This document shows, piece by piece, positions 3,072 through 35,386 of a stretch of DNA of 64,000 nucleotides (the stretch's first letter is position 1; the number at the start of each line of letters is the position of its first letter). The DNA lies in assembly GCA_003225315.1 (NCBI GenBank), contig QHZD01000024.1:1-64000 (forward strand), written 5' to 3'. Source of the DNA: Acidobacteriota bacterium (lineage in GTDB: Bacteria; Acidobacteriota; Terriglobia; Acidiferrales; UBA7541). The notes beneath the pieces are model-generated. The model was not told the DNA's origin. It saw nothing but the letters and a program-made list of their open reading frames with translations, and made no database searches. Made by a program: the position numbers and the translations under genes.

Positions 3072-3346
3072 GTCCCTCGGTCATATTCGGAGTGCGTCAG
3101 GAGATGCAAGACAAAGACGATTTGCGCCCTGTAATTCACGCGGGCAACCAAACGGTACTTGTTCCCGGCGATGTTGAAGACGGTTCTGCGGCCGACCAGA
3201 TCGGCGTTGCGGTAGACCTGCTTCAAATCGGCGGGCGTCTTCCAGCTCGCGCTGCGCACCACGGCGTACCAGGATTCGAGACTTGGTTTTGCGTCCGGGT
3301 GCTCTTGCCAGAACGCTTCCAAAGCGCCGCGCTTGATGACGCGCAT
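3059..3346 (-). CDS. higB: HigB-like toxin, ribosome-dependent mRNA interferase
   Basis: Probable toxin of a type II module. HigB proteins fold like RelE and cleave mRNA on translating ribosomes. The 95-residue product begins MRVIKRGALEAFWQEHP, followed by ESWYAVVRSASWKTPADLK, FNIAGNKYRLVARVNY and a C-terminal THSEYDRG motif, all typical of the family. Start at 3346 is preferred because homologues begin MRVI; an in-frame ATG at 3364 would add six residues (MRTCAL). It is the first gene of a two-gene operon with the antitoxin. Confidence 0.85.
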   Translation of the reverse strand: MRVIKRGALEAFWQEHPDAKPSLESWYAVVRSASWKTPADLKQVYRNADLVGRRTVFNIAGNKYRLVARVNYRAQIVFVLHLLTHSEYDRGTWKQ

Positions 3347-29570: not shown

Positions 29571-30470
29571 ATGCCCCGCACGGTTCGCTGTGGCCTGATT
29601 CAGGCACGATGTGAATGGTCTCCGGAAGGGTTTTCGCTCGCCGACATCAAGAAGAAAATGATCGCCAAGCACGAGCGCTTGATCGCCGACGCCGCCAAGA
29701 AAAAAGTGCAAATCCTCGGCCTGCAGGAACTCTTCTATGGCCCGTACTTTTGCGCCGAGCAGCAGACTCGCTGGTACGAATTGACCGAACGCATCCCCAA
29801 TGGACCCACCATCTCGCTGATGCAAAAACTCGCCAAAAAGCACCAGATGGTCCTCGTCGTCCCCGTTTACGAAGTGGAAATGACCGGCGTTTACTTCAAC
29901 ACTGCCGCGGTCATCGACGCCGACGGCCGTTACCTCGGCAAATACCGCAAGCACCACATTCCTCATTGCCATCCGGGCTTTTGGGAGAAGTTTTATTTCA
30001 CGCCCGGCAACGCCGGCTACCCCGTCTTCCAGACCCGCCACGCCCGCGTCGGCGTGTACATTTGCTACGACCGCCACTTCCCCGAGGGCGCGCGCATCCT
30101 CGGCCTTAACGGCGCGGAAATCGTTTACAACCCGTCCGCTACCGTCGCTGGCCTCTCCGAGTATCTTTGGGAACTCGAGCAGCCCGCCCACGCCGTCGCA
30201 AACGCTTATTTCGTCGCCGCCATCAATCGCGTCGGCACGGAAGCTCCCTGGAAAATCGGCGAGTTTTACGGCAAGAGCTACTTTTGCGACCCGCGCGGGA
30301 AAATCGTCGCCCAAGCCAGCCGCGATAAGGACGAACTGCTCGTTGCGGAATTGAATCTCGACGAGATTCAGAAAGTCCGCGACACCTGGCAGTTCTACCG
30401 CGATCGCCGCGCGGAATCGTATGGCGAAATCGTGCGCACGCAAGCCACGACCAGCGCCGCAGCCAGTTAG
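29571..30470 (+). CDS. Nitrilase-superfamily amidohydrolase, probable beta-ureidopropionase / N-carbamoyl amidase
   Basis: 299-residue carbon-nitrogen hydrolase. The catalytic triad is visible: Glu in LGLQELFYG (~48), Lys in LGKYRKHHIP (~124) and Cys in VYICYDRHFPEG (~165). ATG 29571 behind GGGAGGT is preferred over the earlier in-frame start at 29511. Such enzymes hydrolyse N-carbamoyl-beta-alanine or N-carbamoyl amino acids, the last step of reductive pyrimidine or hydantoin breakdown. Placement beside a nucleobase transporter and a dihydropyrimidinase supports that role over a plain nitrilase. Confidence 0.88.
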   Translation: MPRTVRCGLIQARCEWSPEGFSLADIKKKMIAKHERLIADAAKKKVQILGLQELFYGPYFCAEQQTRWYELTERIPNGPTISLMQKLAKKHQMVLVVPVYEVEMTGVYFNTAAVIDADGRYLGKYRKHHIPHCHPGFWEKFYFTPGNAGYPVFQTRHARVGVYICYDRHFPEGARILGLNGAEIVYNPSATVAGLSEYLWELEQPAHAVANAYFVAAINRVGTEAPWKIGEFYGKSYFCDPRGKIVAQASRDKDELLVAELNLDEIQKVRDTWQFYRDRRAESYGEIVRTQATTSAAAS

Positions 30471-30537
30471 GTTATGTTCCGCCTCCCGGCAAACGCAGTT
30501 GCGATTCGCGATAAGGAGATGGGAGCAGACCTTCACG

Positions 30538-31971
30538 ATGAGTGAAATTCACAGCGCCGCGCTTCGCGCCGAAACTATTCAGAACAGTTCGCTCTACAAC
30601 AAGGACCTCGCTCCCGTCCCCGGCGAACGCCGCGTCTGGCGCACCTACAATTACGCCGCCCTGTGGATTTCCATGAGCGTGAACATTCCCACGTACATGC
30701 TCGCCAGCGGCATGATCGCGGGCGGCATGAACTGGCGGCAGGCGCTCTTTACCGTTTTTCTCGGCAACGTGCTGGTGCTGATTCCCATGCTGCTCAACGC
30801 CCACGCCGGCGCGCAGTACGGCATCCCGTTCCCGGTTTTTGCGCGCGCGTCCTTCGGCGTTCTCGGCGCTAACGTTCCCGCCATTCTGCGCGCTCTTGTT
30901 GCCTGCGGCTGGTTCGGCATTCAAACCTGGATCGGCGGCGAAGCTATCAACGCCATGATAGTCGCGCTTGCGCCTTCTTGGGCGCGCTTTTCGTTCGGCC
31001 CGGCCATGTGCTTCGTTTTCTTCTGGCTCCTCAACGTTCTTGTAATTCTTCGCGGTATCGAAACCATCCGCTTCTTGCAAGGCATCTCCGCTCCGTTCCT
31101 GCTCCTCATCGGACTTGCTCTTCTTCTTTGGGCCCGCAGCAAGGCTGGCGGCTTCGGCCCCATGCTGGCCACGCCCTCGAAATTTCAAACCTTTGGCGAA
31201 TTCTTTCGCTTCTTTATCCCTTCACTCACTGGAGTAGTCGGTTTCTGGGCCACTGTTTCATTGAACATTCCCGACTTCACGCGTTACGCCCGCGGCCAGC
31301 GCGATCAAATCGTCGGCCAAGCCCTTGGCCTCCCCGCTACCATGACTTTTTATTCCTTCATCGGTATCGCCGTCACGTCCGCCACTATGATCATTTTTGG
31401 CCAGGCGCTCTGGGATCCCGTCGCCGTTCTCTCGCGCCTCGGCAATCCTTTCGCCGTCGTTCTGGCGATGATCGCCTTGCTGATGGCCACTCTCAACGTC
31501 AACGTCGCAGCCAACGTTGTCTCCCCGGCCAACGATTTTTCCAATCTGTCTCCACGCCGCATCAGTTTTCGCACCGGCGGCCTCATCACTGCCGTCGTAG
31601 GCCTCCTAATGCAGCCTTGGAAGCTCCTCGCCAGCTATGGCAGTTACATTTTTATCTGGCTCGTCGGCTATTCAGGCTTTCTCGGTCCCATCGCGGGCGT
31701 TCTCATCTGCGACTATTTTGTGGTGCGCAAAAAACTCCTCGTCGTTGAAGATCTCTACCAGCGCAATAGTGTCTACGAATACTCACGCGGCTTTAACTGG
31801 ACCGCCGTTGCGGCGCTGGCTGCTGGCGCGGCCGTCGCTTTTGTCGGCCTGGTGTTTCCGCCCCTGCGCGTCCTCTACAACTACGCCTGGTTCGTCGGCT
31901 TCCTGGTGAGTTTCCTCATCTACTTCGCGTTGATGAACCGCGTCGCGCCGGTTACGCAGCCAGCCGGGTGA
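30538..31971 (+). CDS. NCS1-family nucleobase/hydantoin:cation symporter
   Basis: 477-residue transporter with about twelve hydrophobic helices. Family features include an N-terminal NKDLAPVPGERRVWRTYNY, helix I WISMSVNIPTYMLASGM, the GIQTWIGGEAI segment and NIPDFTRYAR. NCS1 proteins import uracil, cytosine, allantoin or hydantoins with sodium or protons. ATG 30538 is chosen for the AAGGAG site and because homologues start close to it; an upstream start would overlap the amidohydrolase gene. It presumably feeds substrate to the neighbouring hydrolases. Confidence 0.9.
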   Translation: MSEIHSAALRAETIQNSSLYNKDLAPVPGERRVWRTYNYAALWISMSVNIPTYMLASGMIAGGMNWRQALFTVFLGNVLVLIPMLLNAHAGAQYGIPFPVFARASFGVLGANVPAILRALVACGWFGIQTWIGGEAINAMIVALAPSWARFSFGPAMCFVFFWLLNVLVILRGIETIRFLQGISAPFLLLIGLALLLWARSKAGGFGPMLATPSKFQTFGEFFRFFIPSLTGVVGFWATVSLNIPDFTRYARGQRDQIVGQALGLPATMTFYSFIGIAVTSATMIIFGQALWDPVAVLSRLGNPFAVVLAMIALLMATLNVNVAANVVSPANDFSNLSPRRISFRTGGLITAVVGLLMQPWKLLASYGSYIFIWLVGYSGFLGPIAGVLICDYFVVRKKLLVVEDLYQRNSVYEYSRGFNWTAVAALAAGAAVAFVGLVFPPLRVLYNYAWFVGFLVSFLIYFALMNRVAPVTQPAG

Positions 31972-32047
31972 GGAGGATCTGGAAGTAAGGAGTTGTAGGT
32001 AAATACTTATTTTGTTCTACGCTCGATTCAGGCATCTGTGCAGAAGA

Positions 32048-32092
32048 GTTGTCATCCTGAGGCCACGCTTTTTGTGGCCGAAGGATCTCAAC
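32048..32092. repeat. Hairpin repeat of the GTCATCCTGAG...AAGGATCT type
   Basis: Nested inverted arms GTTG/CAAC, ATCCT/AGGAT and GGCCAC/GTGGCC surround a T-rich loop. The flanking TCATCCTGAG and GAAGGATCTC match an extragenic hairpin family I recall from many acidobacterial and other genomes. It is non-coding and probably a REP-like element. It lies within the 295-nt gap between the transporter and flavoprotein genes. Confidence 0.5.
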
Positions 32093-32132
32093 GTTACACA
32101 TTCGCAGCGCCAAGAGTGCCCAAGGAGCACCC

Positions 32133-32249
32133 ATGGACTTCGGTATCACCATGGAGCCCGACATCTTTGTGGGACAGCCATTCCTGGCTGTCCTCCTACG
32201 ATCTAGTTCGCGCAGTTTTGGCGGGGATCACTCGCGGACCGACAGTTGA
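32133..32249 (+). pseudogene. Decayed duplicate of the 5' end of the downstream flavoprotein gene
   Basis: ATG 32133 behind AAGGAGCACCC opens a 38-codon frame beginning MDFGITMEPDIF. The gene downstream begins MDFGITIKPDIS. Over the first 34 nt the two copies differ at only four or five positions; similarity then stops close to a palindrome (32172-32193). The short frame ends at TGA 32247-32249. It is read as a truncated duplicate, or as a leader peptide that arose from one. Confidence 0.55.
32172..32193. repeat. Palindromic element GGACAGCCA-ttcc-TGGCTGTCC
   Basis: A perfect 9-bp inverted repeat with a four-base loop. It begins directly where the duplicated gene start loses similarity to the intact gene. 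Similar GGACAGCC palindromes recur in acidobacterial intergenic DNA, so a REP-type element is likely. Confidence 0.45.
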
Positions 32250-32266
32250 CGATTGGGGGAACTCGC

Positions 32267-33262
32267 ATGGACTTCGGCATCACCATCAAGCCTGACATCT
32301 CCATCGACCGCATCCTCAGCCTCACTCGCCAGGCTGAATCCTCCGGCTTCTCCTTCGGCTGGATTTTCGATTCCCACGTTATCTGGAAGGAGCCGTTTCC
32401 GCTCCTCACTCTGATGGCTTCCAATACCAAAAAAATGCGCCTCGGTACTTGCGTAACAAATCCAGCCGTGCGCGATGTCACCGTTTCCGCAAGCCTCTTC
32501 GCCACATTGAATCTTGCTTCGCACGGCCGCATGGAGCTTGGCATCGGGCGCGGTGACAGCTCCCGCCGCGTCCTCGGCAAGAAACCCACTACTCTCGAAA
32601 ACCTCGAGGAATTCGTCCGTATCTTCCGTAGCTTGAATGCCGGCAAAACCGTCGACCTCGATGGCATCCCCACAAAATTTCCTTGGGCCAGCGGCGAAAT
32701 TCCCCGCGTCTGGGTTGCCGGGTATGGCCCCAAAGCCTTGCGCACTGCCGGTCGCATCGGCGACGGCGTGATTCTCCAATTTGCCGACCTCGACCTCATC
32801 GACTGGTGTCTCGGCTTTGTCCGCGAAGGGGCTAAGGAAGCCGGCCGAGACTTCAGCAAAATCGAAGTCATGGCCGCCGCCCCCGTCTGGGCTTCCGAGG
32901 ACTTGAAAACCGCCCGCGAACACGTCCGCTGGTTTCCCGCCCTGGTCTCCAATCATGTGATAGACCTCATTTCCAAGTACAAGCCGGAGGAACTGCCGCC
33001 CGCGCTGACCTCTTTCGTCAAAGACCGCGGCAAGTACGACTATCTCCACCACTGCGAAGTGGGCAGCGACAATGCCGAGTTTGTCAGCGACGAAGTCGTC
33101 GACCGCTTTTGCATCATCGGCCCTATCGACGAGCACCGTAAAAAGCTGGACAGCCTTCGCAAGGTCGGGGTCACCCAATTCAATATCTATCTAATGTGTG
33201 GCGATGAAGAAAAAACCCTAGACGTGTATAAGCGCGAAATCGTGCCCCACTACACCCACTGA
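32267..33262 (+). CDS. LLM-class flavin-dependent oxidoreductase in the hydantoin cassette
   Basis: 331-residue luciferase-like TIM-barrel flavoprotein. It begins MDFGITIKPDIS and shows GWIFDSHVIWKEPFPLL, TCVTNPAVRD, a LGIGRGDSSRR loop and WVAGYGPKALRTAG, all standard for the F420/FMN-using methylene-H4MPT-reductase-like group. It resembles the subgroup named CPS_4043, which in memory occurs next to dihydropyrimidinase genes. ATG 32267 behind GGGGGA is chosen over the TTG at 32246. The substrate is unknown; an oxidation of a pyrimidine- or hydantoin-derived ring is an inference from context. Confidence 0.82.
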   Translation: MDFGITIKPDISIDRILSLTRQAESSGFSFGWIFDSHVIWKEPFPLLTLMASNTKKMRLGTCVTNPAVRDVTVSASLFATLNLASHGRMELGIGRGDSSRRVLGKKPTTLENLEEFVRIFRSLNAGKTVDLDGIPTKFPWASGEIPRVWVAGYGPKALRTAGRIGDGVILQFADLDLIDWCLGFVREGAKEAGRDFSKIEVMAAAPVWASEDLKTAREHVRWFPALVSNHVIDLISKYKPEELPPALTSFVKDRGKYDYLHHCEVGSDNAEFVSDEVVDRFCIIGPIDEHRKKLDSLRKVGVTQFNIYLMCGDEEKTLDVYKREIVPHYTH

Positions 33263-33570
33263 CTACTCCACCGCCCAGCTTTTTCTTGACATTCTCTGAA
33301 TTTGTGATATACTCCTTCTGTAGATTACTAGGTGTGGACTGCGGGAGTTTGCTCCGTTTTCCTTTTTTGAGCCGCAATTTCCGGTCAGGTGCTCCGAAAC
33401 AACCAAAAACCCGTCCTTTAGAATCAATCAAATACGAAATGCTTTTTCTGTAACTCTTTTCTTTTGATATTCATGCAAAATGATGGGGGGTGGGGGCCAG
33501 GTTTCGTCCCTTCCCACATTCGCTTCCGACTTAGTCAGAATCTGTTCCCGCTTCAGCAGAGGACTTGCAC
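33263..33570. other. Intergenic leader before the dihydropyrimidinase gene
   Basis: Holds the strong sigma-70-type promoter described separately, a weak hairpin with T-run about 30-45 nt after it (around 33340-33370), AT-rich sequence and a G-rich patch near 33483-33498. No protein-coding frame is convincing. Confidence 0.45.
33286..33313 (+). promoter_or_regulatory. Sigma-70-type promoter, near-consensus
   Basis: TTGACA at 33286-33291 and TATACT at 33308-33313 are separated by 16 nt, with TGA just before the -10. This is the best consensus promoter seen in the window. It lies ~255 nt upstream of the dihydropyrimidinase start, so a long leader or a separate small RNA would result. Confidence 0.7.
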
Positions 33571-34962
33571 ATGCGCTTTGACACCGTAATTCGCAACGGC
33601 ACGGTCGTAACCGCCACAGACACGTCCCTCGCCGACGTGGGCATCGCGGGAGACAAAGTCACCGCCATCGCTGCCCAACTCCCCACCGAGAACGCCACGC
33701 GTATCGTTGAAGCCTCCGGCTGCTTGGTCATTCCCGGCGGCATCGACGTGCACACGCACCTCGACATGCCCTTCGGCGGCACGACCAGCGCTGACGACTT
33801 TCAGACCGGCACCATCGCGGCCGCTTTCGGCGGTACCACCACGCTGATCGACTTCGCCATCCAGTACAAAGGCCAAACCCTCCGCCAGGCCTTTGACGCT
33901 TGGATGAAAAAAGCTCACGACAAAGCTGTCACGGACTATGCCTTCCACTGCATCATCACCGATCTCGGCTCCGCGCAGCTCGAGGAAATGGGCCAGCTCA
34001 TCCGCGAAGGCGTCACCAGCTTCAAGCTCTTCATGGCTTACCCCGGCGTCTTCATGCTCGACGACGCCACGATCTTTAAGGCCATGCGCCAGGCCGCCAA
34101 GCACAATGGACTCATCTGCATGCACGCCGAAAACGGCGGCGCCATCGACGTGATCGTCCAGCAGGCCCTCGCCGAAGGAAAACGCGCGCCGAAGTATCAC
34201 GCGCTCACTCGTCCCACCACCGCTGAAGCCGAAGCCACTTCCCGCGCCATCGCCCTCGCGGAAATGGCCGGCGCCCCCGTTTACATCGTCCATCTCTCCT
34301 GCAACGACGCGCTCGAAAAAGTCCGCGAAGCCCGCGACCGCGGCCTGCCCGCTTACGCCGAGACCTGTCCGCAATACTTGTATCTCTCGCTCGAAAATAT
34401 GGACGCTCCCGGATTTGAAAGCGCCAAATACGTTTTCACTCCTCCGCTCCGAGAAAAGTGGAACCAGGAAAAACTCTGGCAGGGCCTCGCCAAAGACACG
34501 TTGCAAGTCGTCTCCACCGACCACTGCCCCTTCTGCTTCAAGGAACAAAAGGAACTCGGCAAGGACGACTTCACCAAAATTCCCAACGGCGGCCCTGGCA
34601 TCGAGCACCGCTTAAGCCTCGTCTATACCGGCGGCGTCCACGGCAAGCATTTTTCGCCCAATCGTTTTGTCCAGCTCGTTGCAACCGCGCCGGCAAAACT
34701 CTTCGGCCTCTACCCGCGCAAAGGCACCATCGCCGTCGGCTCCGATGCCGACGTGGTCATCTTCGATCCCAATCACGAGGAAGTCATCAGCGCAAAGACC
34801 CACCACATGCGCGTGGATTATTCCATGTTCGAGGGCATCAAGATCAAAGGCGCGCCCAAAACCGTTTTCTCCCGCGGCCGCACCGTCATCGAGTCCGGCA
34901 AATTCGTCGGCCGCCCCGGCTCCGGCCAATTCCTTCGCCGCCAAACCTACTCGGGGATGTGA
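33571..34962 (+). CDS. hydA: Dihydropyrimidinase / D-hydantoinase
   Basis: 463-residue cyclic amidohydrolase that opens dihydropyrimidine or hydantoin rings to N-carbamoyl acids. The dinuclear metal site is visible: HTH in GGIDVHTHLDMPFGG (~59-61), the carboxylated lysine in TSFKLFMAYPG (~152), His in MHAENG and in VHLSCND, and Asp in STDHCPFCF (~317). ATG 33571 is preferred; an in-frame TTG lies 6 nt upstream. With the amidohydrolase, NCS1 transporter and flavoprotein it forms a catabolic cassette. No dihydropyrimidine dehydrogenase (PreA/PreT type) is seen in the window. Confidence 0.92.
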   Translation: MRFDTVIRNGTVVTATDTSLADVGIAGDKVTAIAAQLPTENATRIVEASGCLVIPGGIDVHTHLDMPFGGTTSADDFQTGTIAAAFGGTTTLIDFAIQYKGQTLRQAFDAWMKKAHDKAVTDYAFHCIITDLGSAQLEEMGQLIREGVTSFKLFMAYPGVFMLDDATIFKAMRQAAKHNGLICMHAENGGAIDVIVQQALAEGKRAPKYHALTRPTTAEAEATSRAIALAEMAGAPVYIVHLSCNDALEKVREARDRGLPAYAETCPQYLYLSLENMDAPGFESAKYVFTPPLREKWNQEKLWQGLAKDTLQVVSTDHCPFCFKEQKELGKDDFTKIPNGGPGIEHRLSLVYTGGVHGKHFSPNRFVQLVATAPAKLFGLYPRKGTIAVGSDADVVIFDPNHEEVISAKTHHMRVDYSMFEGIKIKGAPKTVFSRGRTVIESGKFVGRPGSGQFLRRQTYSGM

Positions 34963-34963
34963 C

Positions 34964-35386
34964 ATGGCCAACGAATATAAATTCCCAACCGCTCTGGAGA
35001 CCTTCTCTGCCGATTATTGGTTTCCGAAATTTGTCATGGGCCCAGCACTCCTTTATTCGGCATATATATTCTTCAATGCAGAACACCCGCTGAGCGCTAT
35101 TGCTGCTGCTCTTCCCTTTTCGTTGAGCCTTACATTCGTGTGGCTGAGCCGCGTAAAACCCGACGCGGAAACCCTAAAGTATAGAAGGCTCTTCCAATGC
35201 CGATCGCTCCCATACTCCGAGATCATTGGATGTACCACATTTTGGGTCTGGGGTCTGATCAAAACCAGACACTACAACTTCCCCTTCGGCAGAATCTATT
35301 TCGCGCTCCCTCGCGATAGAACGTATGACTATCGCTGGGACAAGGGAATAATTTCATTCATCCGAAGCAAAACTGGATTAACCTGA
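34964..35386 (+). CDS. Small membrane protein coupled to the dihydropyrimidinase gene
   Basis: 140-residue protein of unknown function. ATG 34964 lies 1 nt after the dihydropyrimidinase stop. Two membrane helices (~22-40 and ~45-65, ALPFSLSLTFVWLSR) precede a soluble part with LPYSEIIGCTTFWVWG, which resembles the PH-like domain of small bacterial membrane proteins, and basic residues near the end. Its position suggests co-expression with the cassette rather than a proven functional link. Confidence 0.7.
   Translation: MANEYKFPTALETFSADYWFPKFVMGPALLYSAYIFFNAEHPLSAIAAALPFSLSLTFVWLSRVKPDAETLKYRRLFQCRSLPYSEIIGCTTFWVWGLIKTRHYNFPFGRIYFALPRDRTYDYRWDKGIISFIRSKTGLT

Follow-up and report, generated by a model that had tools for sequence, protein, structure and literature searches.

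A putative pyrimidine degradation cluster of an Acidobacteriota bacterium with a predicted F420-dependent replacement for the uracil-reducing enzyme

Within the analysed window, a stretch of 64,000 nucleotides of an Acidobacteriota bacterium (assembly GCA_003225315.1, contig QHZD01000024.1, positions 1 to 64,000; host genome G000 in our sampling), five open reading frames are located on the plus strand between positions 29571 and 35386. The first gene (29571-30470) encodes a carbon-nitrogen hydrolase of the nitrilase superfamily (PF00795, 215 bits) and not an amidohydrolase, as had been stated in the original prediction. Its best PDB relatives are Drosophila CG3027 and human beta-ureidopropionase, closely followed by plant N-carbamoylputrescine amidase, while the AguB equivalog cut-off is not reached (256 against 410 bits). 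The motifs LQELFYG, KYRKHHIP and YICYDRH, which probably contain the catalytic Glu, Lys and Cys, are present, and the protein is a predicted beta-ureidopropionase (PydC role). The second gene product (30538-31971) is an NCS1-family nucleobase:cation symporter (TIGR00800, 399 bits, cut-off 353; PF02133, 410 bits), predicted to import uracil or thymine. It is followed by a gene for an LLM-class protein (32267-33262) and one for a dihydropyrimidinase (33571-34962, DHP, PydB; TIGR02033, 622 bits against a cut-off of 393). The closest PDB chains of the latter are D-hydantoinases (E 1e-169) and a dihydropyrimidinase (3sfw, 1e-163), and the motifs HTH (61), TSFKLFMAY (149), CMHAENG (183), VHLSCND (240) and STDHCPF (315), likely to form the metal site, were found.

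The last open reading frame (34964-35386) starts one base after the dihydropyrimidinase stop and encodes a predicted membrane protein, for which a coupled role had been implied in the original prediction. It matches no Pfam or NCBIfam model and gave no tblastn match (E <= 1e-5) in two sets of 55 and 32 fetched loci. It looks local to this genome and is probably not part of the cassette. The genes of the cassette are neighbours on one strand but not tightly packed, with gaps of 67, 295 and 308 bases. A 43-base near-copy (84%) of the start of the LLM gene (32258-32300) lies at 32124-32166 on the plus strand and is probably a duplication relic. The arrangement is not due to chance. All 20 close relative loci (L031-L050) keep the LLM gene with NCS1, 19 keep the carbon-nitrogen hydrolase and 16 keep DHP. 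The missing hydrolase (L045) and three of the four missing DHPs (L033, L046 and L047) are at contig ends, whereas L038 has 10 kb of flank without a DHP.

The LLM protein belongs to NCBIfam TIGR03842 (F420_CPS_4043), a family without an assigned function (410 bits against 295.45, positions 1-328 of 329). In a structural comparison of its AlphaFold model (pLDDT 85), the top PDB neighbours were all F420-dependent methylene-H4MPT reductases (Mer; 1z69, 8qpl; Z about 36, 26-27% identity), with which the motifs VTNPxVR and GIGxGD are shared. The first 15 entries were all F420-dependent enzymes, ahead of the FMN monooxygenases. A Mer function was rejected, since the protein scores far below the Mer equivalog cut-offs (TIGR03555, 132 against 348.7 bits; NF002619, 155 against 276). 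Position 6, mutated in Mer entry 8qq8 (E6Q), is T, V or C in TIGR03842. Residues invariant in 55 TIGR03842 sequences (the window protein and 54 of 56 loci that passed a full-length filter) include S36, W40, R95, Y153, Q171, W222, N229, H230, Y257, Y259 and H262. An FMN-dependent, RutA-like monooxygenase attacking uracil with oxygen is very unlikely, although it would belong to the same superfamily (PF00296) and RutA structures appear in the structural comparison at Z about 25. RutA is not among the 25 best of 27 NCBIfam matches of the window protein (the lowest of these scores 20.5 bits, the RutA cut-off is 498.3), and the product of RutA would not be expected to need a dihydropyrimidinase. 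The other two LLM genes of G000 scored 96 bits against RutA (contig C46) or gave no RutA match at E <= 1e-10 (contig C39); one LLM scanned in this comparison carried an out-of-frame leader.

The dehydrogenase of the classical reductive pathway was not found outside the window either. No PreA was found in the whole genome of G000 at E <= 1e-40, with 5 of 11 first-look candidates scored and without a separate search for PreT, while 37 of the 42 PreA-positive relatives score over 640 bits. Among 297 Acidobacteriota genomes, TIGR03842 was over cut-off in 24. All 24 encode DHP and none encodes PreA or a PreA-like protein (a class of 285-320 bits, below the 335 cut-off, defined after the data had been seen), in contrast to 57 of the other 81 DHP genomes. 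At the genus level, 13 LLM genera and 27 PreA/PreA-like genera were counted, none of which is shared. Of 78 genomes with a strong DHP (>= 560 bits, a threshold also chosen after seeing the data), 24 have the LLM, 35 PreA, 16 the PreA-like protein and three none of them, while no genome has two. The three types do not cover all DHPs, since 24 of the 105 DHP genomes have none of them, most of these with weaker DHP scores.

The occurrence of the LLM is linked to that of F420 biosynthesis. CofG is found in 20 of 24 LLM genomes compared to 22 of 273 others, and genomes with both DHP and CofG carry the LLM in 20 of 22 cases. Of 28 chosen genomes, CofD and CofE are encoded in 14 of 15 LLM genomes and in none of 13 PreA/PreA-like controls. 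The NADPH:F420 reductase NpdG, searched in 27 genomes, is over cut-off in 14 of 15 Acidobacteriota LLM genomes and in none of 9 controls. In G000, CofG (469 bits), CofD (324 bits) and CofE (256 bits), all over cut-off, and NpdG are encoded within 8 kb on contig C17, which suggests that the host makes F420, although CofH and CofC were not searched genome-wide. There are exceptions to this pattern. Four LLM genomes (G009, G125, G267 and G283) have CofD and CofE but no CofG match, G124 has CofG but no CofD, CofE or NpdG over cut-off, and the SAR324 genome G297, source of the LLM locus L054, has no NpdG over cut-off.

In Actinomycetota, TIGR03842 was found in 52 of 246 genomes. Of these, 50 have DHP, compared to 3 of 28 LLM-negative genomes, which were not selected at random but mostly in list order, leaving out some small genomes. 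PreA was not detected in any of the 52 (0 of 80 in total), and since it is absent with or without the LLM, the exclusion is not informative in this phylum. Of the 55 LLM matches, 49 have DHP, carbon-nitrogen hydrolase or NCS1 in the fetched flank (neighbours were counted above a 38% identity floor set after seeing the data). No CofD match was found in G416 and G470, and only a broken one below the cut-off in G491. The LLM is not accompanied by Pyd genes everywhere, as no partner was found for 6 of the 55 Actinomycetota matches and for 3 of 16 Acidobacteriota loci outside the close relatives (L076, L077 and L080).

A Leisingera plasmid (NZ_CP081074.1) carries the gene row cofG-cofH-cofD-cofC-cofE-npdG-LLM beside genes for a transhydrogenase, an aminotransferase, a Zn-hydrolase, a dihydropyrimidinase and NCS1. 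On a Streptomyces replicon (NZ_CP081497.1), LLM and DHP matches lie about 30 bases apart on the same strand. A Paracoccus plasmid has the F420 operon plus LLM, but no annotated dihydropyrimidinase within about 40 kb. A mere hitch-hiking of the LLM in F420-making lineages, which happen to keep it near DHP genes and to have lost PreA, might be considered, since relatedness of the genomes was not corrected for and a single genus supplies 11 of the 24 Acidobacteriota LLM genomes; in the one of these whose LLM and DHP were fetched (G102), the two are not linked. However, this appears very unlikely. Gene order and strand differ among loci while linkage holds (L051, L052, L053, L070 and L071), and the linkage recurs in Acidobacteriota, Actinomycetota and Rhodobacterales on separate, well supported branches of the LLM tree. 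Furthermore, within one family, the sampled LLM genomes (two genera) have CofG and lack PreA, while the PreA genomes lack CofG.

The neighbourhoods of related clusters, placed by tblastn, point to pyrimidines. A pyrimidine-nucleoside phosphorylase and a CNT transporter are encoded in L070, a nucleoside hydrolase and an MMSDH-family dehydrogenase in L053. PreA-like proteins stand in otherwise equivalent DHP/carbon-nitrogen hydrolase/NCS1 loci that lack the LLM (L082, L084 and L085). Together with the beta-ureidopropionase-like hydrolase, this makes it unlikely, but does not exclude, that the cassette degrades another cyclic ureide or pyrimidine-like ring (a hydantoin, a modified base or a nucleoside-antibiotic fragment) on which the LLM acts with F420. 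Such a substrate would be in line with the closest PDB chains of the dihydropyrimidinase being D-hydantoinases, with the scores of the NCS1 protein against allantoin permease models, which are below their cut-offs, and with an F420 LLM proposed for yanthine reduction in Chloroflexota (PMC12507026). It is also improbable that the LLM works after ring opening, for example by reducing malonic or methylmalonic semialdehyde with F420H2, with dihydrouracil coming from another, unrecognised source. F420-dependent LLM relatives do act on alcohols and sugar aldehydes (Adf and FGD), and most LLM clusters show no match to an MMSDH-family query (14 of 54 loci do). On the other hand, aldehyde dehydrogenases occur together with the LLM in other clusters (L053, over the MMSDH cut-off; matches of 42-47% identity in L094, L095 and L101), and the LLM is exclusive with PreA, the first-step enzyme, in DHP genomes.

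The locus is best explained as a reductive pyrimidine degradation (Pyd) gene cluster in which the first enzyme has been replaced (probability about 0.8). In this reading, NCS1 imports uracil or thymine, and the LLM protein reduces the C5=C6 bond with F420H2, by a predicted hydride transfer from the deazaflavin, to dihydrouracil or dihydrothymine. Dihydropyrimidinase opens the ring, and the carbon-nitrogen hydrolase releases beta-alanine or its methyl analogue, CO2 and ammonia. F420H2 would be regenerated by NpdG, so that the net reductant is NADPH, but without the iron-sulfur/FAD PreTA complex. F420 as the physical cofactor, uracil or thymine as substrate and the reductive direction are inferred; no enzyme was assayed. 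The original prediction that the flavoprotein may carry out the missing redox step is supported, while its alternative, degradation of a related ring compound, is less likely. With somewhat less certainty, but more likely than not, the whole TIGR03842 family might be a non-homologous, F420-dependent dihydropyrimidine dehydrogenase, which would be the usual route in many Actinomycetota and in F420-making Acidobacteriota and, in Leisingera, would be carried as a self-contained plasmid island.

If correct, this would assign a function to a widespread "hypothetical equivalog" family, supply a first step of pyrimidine catabolism in Actinomycetota and Acidobacteriota with dihydropyrimidinase but without PreA, and give F420 a role in the primary nitrogen metabolism of aerobic bacteria. 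A multi-cofactor iron-sulfur/FAD/FMN enzyme could then be replaced by a single TIM-barrel protein when F420 is available. By extrapolation, it might also indicate which bacteria reduce pyrimidine drugs such as 5-fluorouracil without PreTA.

We found no paper describing such a replacement, but related cases are known. SSGG-03002/NpsU, a putative F420/FMN oxidoreductase, reduces the uracil C5-C6 bond in mureidomycin (PMC10714638). This is supported by genetic evidence, while no product was detected in enzyme assays, and it concerns antibiotic biosynthesis with a uracil-containing natural product. In uricolytic clusters of Chloroflexota, a putative F420-dependent luciferase-family yanthine reductase was proposed from gene context to take the place of YgfK/UacX, the latter a PydA homologue, for the reductive dearomatisation of an N-heterocycle (PMC12507026). 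The idea is the same, but substrate and gene set (SsnA, XdhD and others) are different. The ferredoxin-dependent PydAc of Clostridium chromiireducens is a precedent for a swapped electron donor of the first Pyd step (PMC7332683). PydAc is still a PydA homologue, whereas here the whole enzyme is non-homologous, and neither F420 nor luciferase is mentioned in that study. With the Pyd pathway comprising NAD(P)H-dependent PydA/PreTA, as in E. coli (PreT-PreA), the cluster shares the dihydropyrimidinase, the beta-ureidopropionase-like hydrolase, the NCS1 transporter and the predicted chemistry (reduction, ring opening and hydrolysis), but PreA was not detected and the reduction is predicted to use F420H2 and a protein from an unrelated superfamily.

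The five ORFs of the original prediction, which had described an amidohydrolase, an NCS1 transporter, an LLM flavoprotein, a dihydropyrimidinase and a coupled membrane protein on one strand, are present on the + strand, but their assignment had to be corrected in part after scans with NCBIfam and Pfam models. The first gene (29571-30470) encodes a carbon-nitrogen (CN) hydrolase (PF00795) rather than an amidohydrolase and is closest in the PDB to Drosophila CG3027 and human beta-ureidopropionase, with plant N-carbamoylputrescine amidase almost as close. The second gene product (30538-31971) is an NCS1 transporter, followed by an LLM protein of family TIGR03842 (32267-33262; 410 bits, cut-off 295) and dihydropyrimidinase (33571-34962; TIGR02033, 622 bits, cut-off 393). 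The putative membrane protein (34964-35386), the ORF of which starts one base after the dihydropyrimidinase stop, could not be assigned to any family and has no relatives in the fetched loci. A 43-base near-copy (32124-32166; 84%) of the start of the LLM gene lies 134 bases upstream of it and is probably a duplication relic.

The closest public relatives of the LLM (loci L031 to L049, 96-83% identity) are mostly found in metagenome-assembled Acidobacteria, many of which are labelled gp2 and one Acidoferrales. One of these records (L046) is titled Betaproteobacteria, but since its LLM is 86% identical to the acidobacterial one and the cluster is conserved, the genome is probably mislabelled or misbinned. 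The genome harboring the cluster studied here (G000) comprises 4.98 Mb in 57 contigs and is 97.6% complete. The dehydrogenase PreA (NF006183) was not found elsewhere in this genome, where no match was obtained at E <= 1e-40 with 5 of 11 first-look candidates scored. The two other PF00296 genes of G000 score best against the SfnG and alkanesulfonate monooxygenase models, albeit below the respective cut-offs, and are either far below the RutA cut-off or not matched by the RutA model.

The same 297 Acidobacteriota genomes (at least 80% complete) were searched for TIGR03842, PreA and dihydropyrimidinase. TIGR03842 is over cut-off in 24 genomes, PreA in 42 and dihydropyrimidinase in 105, while a shorter PreA-like protein (285-320 bits, below cut-off, a class defined after the scores had been seen) is found in 18. 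All 24 LLM genomes have dihydropyrimidinase, and none of them has PreA or the PreA-like protein. In contrast, 57 of the other 81 dihydropyrimidinase genomes encode one of the latter (40 PreA, 17 PreA-like), while 24 have none of the three. The dihydropyrimidinase genomes with LLM and those with PreA or PreA-like proteins fall in 13 and 27 genera, respectively, with no genus in common. When only dihydropyrimidinases of 560 bits or more were considered (a threshold also chosen after the fact), 78 genomes remained, of which 24 have the LLM, 35 PreA, 16 the PreA-like protein and 3 none of these, while none has two. The Fisher p-values for this pattern (5e-8 to 7e-16) ignore relatedness, and a single genus (g72) supplies 11 of the 24 LLM genomes. 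Within one family (f2), however, the sampled genomes of two genera (g5 and g6) have LLM and CofG and no PreA, whereas sampled members of five others (g2, g4, g7, g8 and g9), though not every one, have PreA, and none sampled in those five genera has CofG.

CofG is over cut-off in 42 of the 297 genomes, including 20 of the 24 LLM genomes. Among the dihydropyrimidinase genomes, the 22 with CofG comprise 20 with LLM, 1 with PreA and 1 with neither, while the 83 without CofG comprise 4 with LLM, 39 with PreA, 17 with the PreA-like protein and 23 with none. In 28 chosen genomes, CofE and CofD are over cut-off in 14 of 15 LLM genomes and in 0 of 13 PreA or PreA-like genomes. NpdG is over cut-off in 14 of the 15 LLM genomes and in 0 of 9 controls; of three further genomes reached through loci, two (G298 and G299) have it, while the SAR324 genome G297 does not. 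Four LLM genomes (G009, G125, G267 and G283) lack a CofG match although they have CofD and CofE, and another one (G124) has CofG but not CofD, CofE or NpdG. In G000, NpdG, CofD, CofG and CofE are encoded at positions 82551-89672 of contig C17. CofH and CofC, for which no genome-wide search was made, were not hit in the 17-kb stretch (L087) of this contig. A nucleoside hydrolase (15236-16201 of L087), 71% identical to the one in the pyrimidine cluster of locus L053, lies within 13 kb of the NpdG, CofD, CofG and CofE genes.

All 20 close relative loci (L031 to L050) keep the LLM with NCS1, 19 with the CN hydrolase and 16 with dihydropyrimidinase; of the four loci without the latter, three are at contig ends and one (L038) is not. 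In L032 (at about 3210-3249) and L049 (at about 4257) the NCS1 gene matches in two overlapping or abutting pieces, suggesting frameshifts or assembly errors. Beyond these close relatives, 13 of 16 Acidobacteriota LLM loci have at least one partner, while three (L076, L077 and L080) have none. Order and strand of the genes vary, so linkage has survived rearrangement. Locus L070 also carries a CNT nucleoside transporter (TIGR00804, 442.4 bits against a cut-off of 442), pyrimidine-nucleoside phosphorylase (TIGR02644, 570 against 409) and a ureide-permease-like gene (PF07168). L053 carries a nucleoside hydrolase (PF01156, over its cut-off, while the NCBIfam equivalogs are below theirs) and an MMSDH-family dehydrogenase (TIGR01722, 567 against 448). 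In L048, the dehydrogenase encoded between CN hydrolase and NCS1 is below every NCBIfam cut-off listed.

Dihydropyrimidinase loci without LLM (L082 to L086) instead match PreA, PreT or PreA-like queries, which hit no other locus examined. In four of these loci (L082 to L085, from genomes G285, G101, G119 and G041), the shorter PreA-like protein (PF01180; the ORF of L085 is 374 aa), scoring just below the PreA cut-off, is encoded with dihydropyrimidinase and NCS1, and in three of the four also with the CN hydrolase. This protein, present in 18 of the 297 Acidobacteriota genomes (17 with dihydropyrimidinase), is possibly a third version of the first Pyd enzyme. Xanthine-dehydrogenase-like molybdopterin and FAD/2Fe-2S subunit genes are located near both an LLM-type and a PreA-like-type pyrimidine cluster (L072, 2566-4791, and L085, 13084-14445).

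In Actinomycetota, TIGR03842 is over cut-off in 52 of 246 genomes. Of 80 genomes examined further (52 positive and 28 negative), dihydropyrimidinase is over cut-off in 50 of 52 against 3 of 28 and CofD in 49 of 52 against 18 of 28, while PreA is over cut-off in 0 of 80. Of the 55 LLM matches, 49 have dihydropyrimidinase, CN hydrolase or NCS1 in the fetched flank. Three of the six exceptions (L140, L143 and L152) are on contigs under 4 kb, and for a further one (L110) a dihydropyrimidinase lies about 12 kb away, outside the stretch. On a plasmid of Leisingera caerulea (NZ_CP081074.1), the LLM ends a cofG-cofH-cofD-cofC-cofE-npdG row, and divergently beside it transhydrogenase subunits, an aminotransferase, a Zn-dependent hydrolase, dihydropyrimidinase and NCS1 are encoded, making up a self-contained plasmid island with a full F420 synthesis row, NADPH:F420 reductase, the LLM, transhydrogenase and Pyd genes. 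LLM matches were found on 10 Leisingera plasmid records, and dihydropyrimidinase matches on 10. On the Streptomyces replicon NZ_CP081497.1, the LLM and dihydropyrimidinase matches are about 30 bases apart. This is in contrast to the Paracoccus alcaliphilus plasmid p402633, which has the same F420 row and LLM but no annotated dihydropyrimidinase within about 40 kb on either side; a DUF1330 gene flanks this row with the LLM, as one flanks the Pyd genes in Leisingera.

The AlphaFold model of the LLM (pLDDT 85, pTM 0.87; 21 sequences) matches F420-dependent Mer best (Z 36, rmsd 2.6, 316 residues). The first 15 listed entries of the structural comparison are all F420-dependent enzymes, before FMN monooxygenases (best Z 28) and RutA (25). 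Nevertheless, the protein is not Mer by the curated cut-offs. Across 55 sequences, 45 positions are invariant, including polar and aromatic residues such as S36, Q171, N229, H230, Y257, Y259 and H262, which might bind the substrate, although residues 259-266 are below pLDDT 50 in the model. The LLM tree places the Acidobacteriota g72 sequence among Actinomycetota and the other Acidobacteriota together, and the well supported branches force at least two changes of that label.

Taken together, the original prediction that the flavoprotein may carry out the missing redox step is supported. From the gene identities, the lack of a detectable PreA, the presence of F420 genes and NpdG, the linkage and the mutual exclusion, it is inferred that electrons are transferred from NADPH to F420 by NpdG and further to uracil or thymine by the LLM, that the ring of the resulting dihydro-compound is opened by dihydropyrimidinase and that beta-alanine is released by the CN hydrolase. 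Deazaflavin hydride transfer and the individual pathway reactions would be those typical of the respective enzyme families.

The gene cluster probably represents a known pathway with a predicted new kind of first enzyme. In a partial search of the open-access literature, no paper was found which assigns TIGR03842 or an F420 enzyme to uracil catabolism. A review on F420 (PMC8498797) has no word beginning with "uracil", and its pyrimidine passages, as far as examined, are about other topics. Related cases, however, are known. A ferredoxin-dependent variant of PydA has been shown (PMC7332683), and there is genetic evidence that a putative F420/FMN oxidoreductase reduces the uracil C5-C6 bond in mureidomycin, although no product was detected in enzyme assays (PMC10714638). 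Furthermore, an F420-dependent luciferase-family protein has been proposed to take the place of YgfK/UacX in uric-acid clusters of Chloroflexota (PMC12507026).
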